From: Halogeometricum rufum | GTDB taxonomy: Archaea; Halobacteriota; Halobacteria; Halobacteriales; Haloferacaceae | Assembly (NCBI RefSeq): GCF_900112175.1 | Contig: NZ_FOYT01000002.1 | Location: 248,001-312,000, forward strand | Direction of reading: 5' to 3' | DNA length: 64,000 nucleotides | Shown here: positions 35,109 to 49,584 of the stretch, piece after piece | How the letters are laid out: each line of letters opens with the position of its first letter | Position numbering within the stretch: position 1 is the first letter of the stretch | Notes under the pieces: generated by a model | Database searches by the model: none | What the model saw: the letters and a program-made list of their open reading frames with translations, nothing else | What the model was told of the DNA's origin: nothing | Translations under genes and position numbers: made by a program

Positions 35109-36299
35109 ATGGGAGAAGTTACACTGGAAGACGTGACGAAGCGCTACGACGACGTAACGGCCGTCGAAGACATGGACCTCGAGATTCGGGACGGCGAGTT
35201 CGTCTGTCTCGTCGGCCCCTCGGGGTGCGGCAAGTCGACGACGATGGAGATGATTGCCGGCCTGACGATGCCCACGGAGGGGCAGGTGTTCATCGGCGGG
35301 CGCGAGGTGACGAACCTCCCGCCGAAGGACCGCGGGGTGGCGATGGTGTTCCAGAACATCGCGCTGTTCCCGCACATGGACGTGTACGACAACATCTCGT
35401 TCGGACTCCGCCTCCGGAAGTACGACAAGGAGGAGATAGACCGACGCGTCGAGCGCGCCTCCGACATCGTCCAACTGGAGGGCATGCTCGACCGGATGCC
35501 CGACGAGATGTCCGGCGGACAGCGTCAGCGCGTCGCCATCGCCCGCGCCATCGTCCGGAACCCGGAGGTGTTCCTGATGGACGAACCGCTGGCGAACCTC
35601 GACGCCAAACTCCGCGTCCACATGCGGACCGAACTCCAGCGCCTGCACAAGGAACTGGACACCACCATCGTCTACGTCACGCACGACCAGGCGGAGGCGA
35701 TGACGATGTCCGACCGCATCGCGGTCATCGACTCGGGGCAACTCCAGCAGATAGACCCGCCGCTGACCTGCTACAACGAGCCCGAGAACCTGTTCGTCGC
35801 CGGCTTCATCGGCAGTCCGGCGATGAACTTCGTGGACGGGCGACTGACGGAGACGGGCTTTACGGGCGATAAGGTCGAAGTCGACTTCGACCCCGACGTG
35901 GTCGACGCGAGCGTCGGAGACGACGTGACGCTCGGCATCCGCCCGGAGGACGTGTACACGCTGAACGACGCCACGTCGCTCGCCAACCCGACGAAGCAGA
36001 TTGACGCGGTCACGGACGTGCTGGAGCCGATGGGCGACGAGATATTCGTCTACCTGCTGCTCAGCGAGGACGCCGAGGTGAGCCTCGACGAGGAGGCGCG
36101 CGGCGCGATGTCCGACCAACTGCTGATGAGCGTCGACCCCGACTCCGACATCACGGAGGACGAGGACGTGACGGTGGTGCTGGACCGAACGAAGGTCCAC
36201 CTGTTCGACACCGAGACGGGGCAAGCGCTCATGCACGGACTCGCACCGACGACGACGGCCAGCACCGACAGCAGCACGCCCGCAGAGAGCGACGACTAG
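35109..36299 (+). CDS. Sugar ABC transporter ATP-binding protein (MalK/UgpC-like)
   Basis: The 396-residue ATPase has Walker A GPSGCGKST, Q-loop FQNIALFPHM, signature LSGGQ-like MSGGQRQR, Walker B VFLMDEPLANLD and the H-loop VTHDQAEAM. A C-terminal TOBE/MalK regulatory region spans about residue 240 onward. AAGGAG upstream of its ATG acts as a likely ribosome binding site. It energises both permeases, and such subunits sometimes serve several importers. It is preceded by a 4-nt gap. Confidence 0.95.
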   Translation: MGEVTLEDVTKRYDDVTAVEDMDLEIRDGEFVCLVGPSGCGKSTTMEMIAGLTMPTEGQVFIGGREVTNLPPKDRGVAMVFQNIALFPHMDVYDNISFGLRLRKYDKEEIDRRVERASDIVQLEGMLDRMPDEMSGGQRQRVAIARAIVRNPEVFLMDEPLANLDAKLRVHMRTELQRLHKELDTTIVYVTHDQAEAMTMSDRIAVIDSGQLQQIDPPLTCYNEPENLFVAGFIGSPAMNFVDGRLTETGFTGDKVEVDFDPDVVDASVGDDVTLGIRPEDVYTLNDATSLANPTKQIDAVTDVLEPMGDEIFVYLLLSEDAEVSLDEEARGAMSDQLLMSVDPDSDITEDEDVTVVLDRTKVHLFDTETGQALMHGLAPTTTASTDSSTPAESDD

Positions 36300-46181: not shown

Positions 46182-46433
46182 TCACTCGTGGGCGGCGTCC
46201 CACTCGTCGGGTTTGCGGATGTTCCCGCAGACGTTGCACTCGACGCGCCCCATCGTGTCCATCGCGGTGTCGAGCGAGTCGCAGTTCCCGCAGAAGTAAC
46301 CCCAGCGCGTGTCGCGGTCCTCCGTGACGAAGACGACGAAGAACGGACCCTGTGCGCCGCGTTCGACCAGTCCGTGGTCGACGTACACGGTGCGTCCGTC
46401 GTCGGTCTGCACTCCTTCGAGTTCGGCGGCCAT
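46182..46433 (-). CDS. Small zinc-ribbon protein (DUF5816-like)
   Basis: ATG 46433 gives 83 residues. The C-terminal half holds GYFCGNCDSLDTAMDTMGRVECNVCGNIRKPDEWDAAHE, two CxxC knuckles around an amphipathic helix, ending in a motif I associate with DUF5816. A single zinc ribbon fills most of the protein. It is divergent from the small membrane protein at 46615, with a perfect palindrome between. Confidence 0.78.
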   Translation of the reverse strand: MAAELEGVQTDDGRTVYVDHGLVERGAQGPFFVVFVTEDRDTRWGYFCGNCDSLDTAMDTMGRVECNVCGNIRKPDEWDAAHE

Positions 46434-46515
46434 GGGCGTCGTTCGACCCCCCGGCGGTTTACCCTGTCGCCTCGGGGTGCGCTCGTCCCCGCCGCCGCGA
46501 ACCGACCCGAACACT

Positions 46516-46544
46516 TATTTTACTAACTGTTCATATGAACAGTT
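46516..46544. promoter_or_regulatory. TATA element and 20-bp perfect palindrome upstream of a small membrane protein
   Basis: TTATTTTAC (46516-46524) is a plausible plus-strand TATA. It abuts AACTGTTCATATGAACAGTT (46525-46544), a perfect 20-bp palindrome covering the expected transcription start. This is the textbook position for a repressor operator. TTCATATGAA resembles the core of ArsR/SmtB-type metalloregulator sites, which is only a suggestive similarity. Confidence 0.65.
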
Positions 46545-46614
46545 GCTAAAGTATCGTGCGAACGACCGAGACTGGCGTCGCGAGACGGAGACGACCGAAC
46601 CCCACACCCCACCC

Positions 46615-46905
46615 ATGAGAAGACTACCACCGGAAGCACCGACCCGACCGCTCGACGAACGACTGACGTGGCGGAGTATCCTCGTGAGTTACGCGATGAT
46701 GGCCGCCGTCCCACTGTTACTGTGGGTCGCCGGCCGACCGCTACTGCGAGTGACGGCCGTCGCCGCCGTCGTCGGCGCGTTCGCTGTCGCCCGACGGGGT
46801 GCGGCGCTGCGGCGCTGTTTCTACGAGTGCGGCGGCTTCGCGTTCGACCTCGGAGGAAGCGTCCGCGTCACAATCAGTCGACCGCGCGCCGACGACCCGG
46901 CGTGA
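46615..46905 (+). CDS. Small membrane protein under a palindromic operator
   Basis: ATG 46615 gives 96 residues with two adjacent transmembrane helices (about 22-37 and 43-58), then RRGAALRRCFYECGGFAFDLGGSVRVTISRPRADDPA. The CFYEC pair is a possible metal or redox site. The expected leader is about 65 nt, longer than usual here. I do not recognise the family. Its tight pairing with a palindromic operator makes it the best candidate for a stress- or metal-induced gene. Confidence 0.6.
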   Translation: MRRLPPEAPTRPLDERLTWRSILVSYAMMAAVPLLLWVAGRPLLRVTAVAAVVGAFAVARRGAALRRCFYECGGFAFDLGGSVRVTISRPRADDPA

Positions 46906-46958: not shown

Positions 46959-47324
46959 TCAGGTCCGGAACGACTCGCCGCACCCGCACTCGGAGACGAC
47001 GTTCGGGTTCTCGACGTGGAAGCCCGCCCCCTGCAGGCCGCCCTCGAACTGGAGGGTCGACCCGCCGATGTAGTTCTGGCTCGCCGGGTCCACGAACACG
47101 CGGAGCCCCTTTTGCTCGACGATGGCGTCGTCGTCCTCGGGTTCGTGGTCGAACCGCATCCCGTACGACAGGCCCGCACAGCCGCCCTGCTGGACGAACA
47201 GGCGCAAACCGGCGATGTCGGTGTCCATCCCTTCGGACTCCATCAACTGCAGGGCCTCTGACGCCGCCGACTCGGTCACGGTCACGGTCGTCTCGGTTCC
47301 ACCATCGACCGTCTCGGTACTCAT
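46959..47324 (-). CDS. A-type iron-sulfur carrier (IscA/HesB/ErpA family)
   Basis: ATG 47324 (STETVDGGTETTV) gives 121 residues. The three conserved cysteines for cluster binding are in QGGCAGLSYG and the C-terminal SECGCGESF. A-type carriers receive [Fe-S] clusters and pass them to target enzymes. It is monocistronic and convergent with the small membrane protein. Confidence 0.94.
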   Translation of the reverse strand: MSTETVDGGTETTVTVTESAASEALQLMESEGMDTDIAGLRLFVQQGGCAGLSYGMRFDHEPEDDDAIVEQKGLRVFVDPASQNYIGGSTLQFEGGLQGAGFHVENPNVVSECGCGESFRT

Positions 47325-49484: not shown

Positions 49485-49584
49485 GCGCGATTCGGCGCGT
49501 GCGGGTAAGGACGTTCCGGAACGGCGCGATTCGGCGCGTGCGGGTAAGGACGTTCCGGAACGGCGCGATTCGGCGCGTGCGGGT
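49485..49584. repeat. 39-nt tandem repeat upstream of hisD
   Basis: Two complete 39-nt units (49485-49523 and 49524-49562) and a 22-nt partial third (49563-49584) are identical. Each full unit ends in the perfect 12-nt palindrome CGTTCCGGAACG (49512-49523, 49551-49562). They fill the hisD side of the divergent spacer. Confidence 0.9.

Follow-up and report, generated by a model that had tools for sequence, protein, structure and literature searches.

The locus and its palindrome

The stretch of DNA analysed here, referred to as the window, comprises 64,000 nucleotides of a Halogeometricum rufum contig. A gene for a DUF5816 protein (46182..46433, - strand) and an ErpA/HesB-type Fe-S assembly gene (erpA; 46959..47321, - strand) are separated in it by a gap of 528 bp, which holds a promoter and a small gene, here termed gene X (46615..46905, + strand). 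The two neighbours are adjacent in four congeners with 45-74 bp between them, and gene X is absent from the four congeners examined. No terminal repeats bounding the whole insert, such as would mark a mobile-element remnant, came up when the insert and its margins were searched for repeats. Further along the window, a perfect 39-bp tandem repeat of 2.6 copies was observed at 49485-49584, just upstream of a hisD-like gene, and its two full copies carry GGACGTTCCGGAACG.

The original prediction concerned a perfect 20-bp palindrome in the promoter of gene X. Its sequence, AACTGTTCATATGAACAGTT, is located exactly at 46525-46544 on neither strand in particular, and as claimed it abuts a TATA-like element, CTTATTTTA (46515..46523, + strand), which has CGACCCGAACA upstream on the BRE side. 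The palindrome was further said to cover the likely start point of transcription. Judged from a spacing of about 25-28 bp past the TATA box, or from where the start codon of the operon lies in relatives, transcription would be expected to start at about 46545-46551, that is, at the right edge of the 20-mer and not at its centre. The ATG of gene X at 46615 follows about 65 bp past the palindrome. As the site lies between the start codons of gene X and the divergent DUF5816 gene, it might be shared and control the latter as well; this is deemed extremely improbable, for the DUF5816 gene has its own start-proximal GGTTTACCCTGTCG-type segment in all the congeners, and these are without the palindrome.

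The symmetry had been put forward as rare by chance, an argument that we rejected on the counts obtained: the window contains a second perfect 20-mer, and 22 of 60 windows simulated under a first-order model hold one at least as long. The second palindrome, GGTCGAAGTCGACTTCGACC at 35873-35892, is GC-rich. The significance of the one studied here derives from its AT-rich sequence, its promoter position and its matches to ars promoters. A search of the 4.19-Mb genome for AACTGTTCATATGAACAGTT returned a single copy even with 3 mismatches allowed, and none of the other genomes in a sample of 195 from the order was found to contain its 14-bp core; being unique, the exact palindrome was discarded as a conserved regulon motif.

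Imperfect symmetry extends over 46519-46550 (TTTACTAACTGTTCATATGAACAGTTGCTAAA, 32 bp, 14 of 16 pairs, unstranded), while the repeat search delimits the inverted repeat as 46516-46553 at 84%. The 32-bp repeat sits between the TATA box and the predicted start and can be resolved into two abutting 14-bp operators with a 2-bp spacer, written as [TTACTAACTGTTCA]TA[TGAACAGTTGCTAA] (46520-46549). Each unit has one good half-site (TGAA/TTCA) and an imperfect partner (CTAA/TTAC), and the TTCA-TA-TGAA core of the palindrome is formed by the two inner half-sites. An imperfect inverted repeat with TGAA/TTCA-type half-sites that overlaps the core promoter is the form taken by ArsR/SmtB operators, and the window site has this form.

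A membrane protein family of arsenic operons

Gene X encodes the predicted 96-residue, two-helix protein, with a probable C-terminal beta hairpin. The cysteines of the CFYEC motif singled out in the original prediction correspond to the C-x3-C pair (C68 and C72) that is invariant in the family alignment (A2; 35-53% identity), which also displays two hydrophobic stretches and a DLGG-VRVT tail; the window protein has the two transmembrane segments, the length of about 96 residues, the invariant C-x3-C and the tail. No match to it was found in Pfam and NCBIfam, and the family is without a model in either. Its predicted structure is of low confidence (pLDDT 65, pTM 0.30). Since positive residues border both helices on their terminal sides, the two protein ends and the cysteines probably face the cytosol.

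Searches at E 0.01 detected homologues in 20 of 148 genomes of the taxonomic family, and the 9-row profile of A2 detected them in 56 of 392 genomes of the order (E 1e-4), with a patchy distribution across families. Single-protein and alignment searches of the genome contigs returned no match.

The surroundings of these homologues are those of arsenic operons. In the best order-wide homologue loci outside the window, arsR adjoins gene X in 29 of 29, and in most of the 29 the genes arsM and arsN2 also lie within the fetched flanks (about 1.5 kb). The first wide-flank set gave the same picture, in which an ArsR-type gene, usually with an arsenite methyltransferase gene next to it downstream, precedes the strong homologues and an acetyltransferase gene comes after them. 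NCBIfam models identify these neighbours as an arsenite methyltransferase (354 bits; cut-off 263) and ArsN2 (163 bits; cut-off 125), and likewise confirm an ArsR metalloregulator and ArsD among the neighbours. The public annotation of a Natrinema sp. SYSU A 869 plasmid reads arsenite methyltransferase, unannotated X, arsN2. The window protein is probably a membrane accessory of arsenic detoxification and a putative binder of trivalent arsenicals, which its C-x3-C pair may coordinate. The window copy stands alone, outside any ars operon.

Some loci deserve mention in their own right. Gene X of the Natrinema plasmid (NZ_CP082248.1, 101499-101777; L194:3001-3279) has no feature in the PLSDB gene table, and given this absence the family is easily missed. 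In Halorussus halophilus (NZ_CP044524.1; L193:2992-4272) the order is ArsR/SmtB, X, permease, the permease being related to SaoE/SO_0444 efflux transporters and an alternative partner to arsM/arsN2. Small proteins with two helices, a run of arginines and a RRRRRLCVPRTTVCVEV-like C-terminal end are also encoded at L032:5001-5261 and L023:6546-6818 (reverse complement of the locus), one of them directly 3' of a wHTH regulator gene.

Promoter homology and two operator codes

The promoter and operator region of gene X (46499..46552, + strand) is a gap-free homologue of the promoters of haloarchaeal arsR-arsM-X-arsN2 operons. Against a position weight matrix (PWM) built from 31 such promoters it scores 39.2 bits, where the next best place in the window reaches -11.6 and the reversed-sequence control -13.9; when the inner operator is left out, the score is still 39.4 against 3.3. 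The region is identical to the operon promoter consensus at 37 of 54 positions, its TATA box aligns with CTTATATTA of the operon promoters, CGACCCGAACACTTAT is identical in the window and in one operon promoter (L191), and GCTAAA is retained at the other end. The 5' leader of the window gene could not be clearly aligned with the intergenic DNA that precedes X in relatives.

Operon promoters share a near-invariant core, CTTATATTAG-N6-CTAATATTAG-N6-CTAAAATG, which can be read as [TTAG-N6-CTAA]TA[TTAG-N6-CTAA], two abutting 14-bp operators laid over the TATA-to-start interval; the TTAG-N6-CTAA operator is present in 28 of 29 operons. The window promoter has the same TATA-linked skeleton with two abutting 14-bp units and differs in its half-sites. 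CTAA-TA-TTAG at the inner positions has become TTCA-TA-TGAA by four symmetric substitutions, the left outer half-site is TTAC, and the right outer CTAA is kept. In the 31 promoters the four substituted positions are each invariant to at least 92%, and every change leads towards a TGAA-N6-TTCA code. From the gap-free homology and the symmetric inner changes, we conclude that the palindrome is the junction of two abutting operators with switched inner halves. A lack of conservation upstream of orthologues had been named as a refutation of the original prediction. Taken literally this is what is seen, the 14-bp core being found in no other sampled genome; as the orthologues retain the operator layout with different half-site letters, the idea is not refuted by it.

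The half-site change may already have occurred in a donor lineage whose ArsR had altered specificity, the unit then being acquired ready-made as an ArsR operator. The absence of the gene from the congeners and the patchy homologues make transfer plausible, but none of the 29 operon promoters examined contains TTCATATGAA or TGAACAG, and we regard such an acquisition as unlikely.

The TGAA-N6-TTCA code leads to the regulators of the genome itself. A search for ArsR-family regulators, as the original prediction had advised, identified an ars-type ArsR with an ELCVC(E) metal box (C1:293234-293629) in an arsR-arsC-arsM operon on contig C1; a second ars region on contig C2 is arranged as arsR-arsC / arsD-arsA, giving two ars-type ArsR proteins in the genome. 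The promoters of orthologues of the C1 ArsR, taken from 21 loci in other genomes, have the consensus ACATTCATATGAACAGTTGTTCAATCGTTCGT, also given as TTCATATGAACAGTTGTTCA, with TGAA-N6-TTCA half-sites, and TTCATATGAACAGTTG is common to this consensus and the window site. Both ArsR types, each with its own code, coexist in several genomes (e.g. G231, G250, G266 and G270).

An operator model, a PWM of these 21 orthologous promoters anchored on TGA, matches the window at 46529..46547 (+ strand; GTTCATATGAACAGTTGCT) with 12.5 bits and an E of 0.012 for the 64-kb window, with a mirror match of 8.6 bits on the - strand. In the genome-wide scan (E up to 10) only two ars promoters were listed; the window site was not, scoring below both, and its scaled E is about 0.8 genome-wide. 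The right-hand unit TGAACAGTTGCTAA (46536..46549, + strand) is identical at 13 of 14 positions to TGAACAGTTGCTCA in the genome's own arsR-arsC-arsM promoter. The genome has three copies of the 12-mer TGAACAGTTGCT, against 0.04 expected under a first-order model: one at the window site, one in the arsR-arsC-arsM promoter and one elsewhere on C1, in what looks like coding sequence. The second-best match of the operator model in the genome is the arsD-arsA promoter (L082:6240-6290; G000 C2, between arsR and arsD), where TTGAGAAAATACTCATATGAG shows three alternating TGA/TCA half-sites.

Two further explanations can be weighed against these matches. The genome encodes many wHTH proteins, with about 40 HTH_5 matches at or above the cut-off, and the site could be the operator of another ArsR/SmtB-type sensor among them, for Zn, Cu or Cd; zinc and cadmium SmtB-type sites share TGAA-N6-TTCA (PMC8790569). 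This appears quite improbable, considering that simple core patterns yielded no TTCATATGAA-like site in the flanks read around the 30 best ArsR-like genes, that the operator model matches only ars promoters genome-wide, and that the gene belongs to an ars-operon family. Alternatively, the site might be a decayed relic, a promoter skeleton that drifted after the loss of its ArsR and in which the palindrome is coincidental, as the loss of the cognate operator letters and the chance occurrence of perfect 20-bp palindromes in such windows would allow. We consider decay very unlikely: the departure from CTAA-TA-TTAG is symmetric and arrives at the consensus of the own-ArsR orthologue promoters, the 96-residue reading frame is intact with its C-x3-C, and a 16-nt match is expected 1e-5 times per genome under a first-order model.

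Proposed regulation and relation to known systems

Overall, the palindrome is very probably part of an ArsR operator controlling a small membrane protein of the haloarchaeal ars operon that now stands alone. We judge it likely that the site acts as a double operator for an arsenic repressor of the ArsR family, and that the unit came from an ars operon and was re-specified to the resident ArsR. The earlier suggestion of an ArsR/SmtB-type site and metal induction is thereby supported and, as far as sequence comparison can tell, narrowed to arsenic by the ars-operon family, the promoter homology and the TTCATATGAACAGTTG match; As(III) or Sb(III) is the likelier signal than Zn or Cu. Of the two ars-type ArsR proteins, the product of the C1 arsR-arsC-arsM operon is favoured as candidate repressor because of the 13/14 identity between TGAACAGTTGCTAA and TGAACAGTTGCTCA.

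In the proposed mechanism, an ArsR dimer would occupy one or both of the 14-bp operators, [TTAC-N6-TTCA]TA[TGAA-N6-CTAA], between the TATA box and the start, and by analogy with ArsR/SmtB repressors would block TBP, TFB or RNA polymerase at initiation. With 16 bp, or 1.5 turns, between the centres of the two units, two dimers might be accommodated on opposite faces of the DNA. ArsR would then be released on binding As(III) or Sb(III) through its ELCVC(E) box, and the small membrane protein would be switched on.

As to its origin, the unit presumably descends from the common haloarchaeal arsR-arsM-X-arsN2 operon, of which the promoter skeleton and gene X were kept; the cognate arsR and the other operon members are missing at this locus. 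Most simply, an ars unit would have entered, or undergone rearrangement, between the DUF5816 and erpA genes, losing arsR and arsM and retaining its promoter and X. The inner half-sites would have passed from CTAA-TA-TTAG to TTCA-TA-TGAA, the code of the resident ArsR. The chances seem evenly poised that this was an operator re-specification in the full sense, in which an ars operon fell apart, its own ArsR was lost, and four symmetric changes moved the gene from the TTAG-N6-CTAA to the TGAA-N6-TTCA code and so kept an uncharacterised arsenic membrane protein inducible; the stand-alone gene, and with it the changed half-sites, is seen in one species.

The analysis assigns a probable trigger, arsenite or antimonite, and a pathway to a small membrane family for which Pfam and NCBIfam have no model; it occurs in arsenic operons across the haloarchaea, yet is unannotated in at least one public record. 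Two related and distinct ArsR operator codes coexist in several haloarchaeal genomes, and one promoter has apparently moved between them, which opens the evolution of repressor specificity to direct testing. Both ArsR operators and the ars operons of haloarchaea are already known; in the open-access literature no description of the small membrane family or of two haloarchaeal ArsR codes was found, which is weak evidence, as open papers alone were covered.

In Thermus thermophilus, scattered ars genes are placed under one ArsR/SmtB protein, TtSmtB, and the ELCVC(E) box of ArsR/SmtB proteins and metalloid release are described (PMC5658604). There, as proposed here, an ArsR/SmtB repressor acts on arsenic genes away from its own locus; that system differs in its bacterial promoter and its genes, and no operator re-specification was noticed there (PMC5658604). 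Within the haloarchaea, arsM in arsR2M of Halobacterium NRC-1 is induced by As(III)/Sb(III) (PMC3600143). The haloarchaeal arsR-arsM-X-arsN2 operons of this analysis share with the window the gene X family, the promoter skeleton and the tandem operator layout, whereas the window gene stands alone between the DUF5816 and erpA genes and its inner half-sites are TTCA/TGAA, not CTAA/TTAG.

The SmtB/ArsR 12-2-12 operators (smt, zia, azt and nmtA), exemplified by TTGAATA-GT-TGTTCAA (PMC8790569), likewise have TGAA-N6-TTCA-type half-sites in a 14-bp unit that overlaps the basal promoter, and the consensus of the orthologous arsR promoters, TATGAACA-GT-TGTTCAA, comes very close to the published sequence (PMC8790569). 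In contrast to them, the window site lies on an archaeal TATA promoter and is built from two units that abut at TTCA-TA-TGAA, each having one imperfect half-site.
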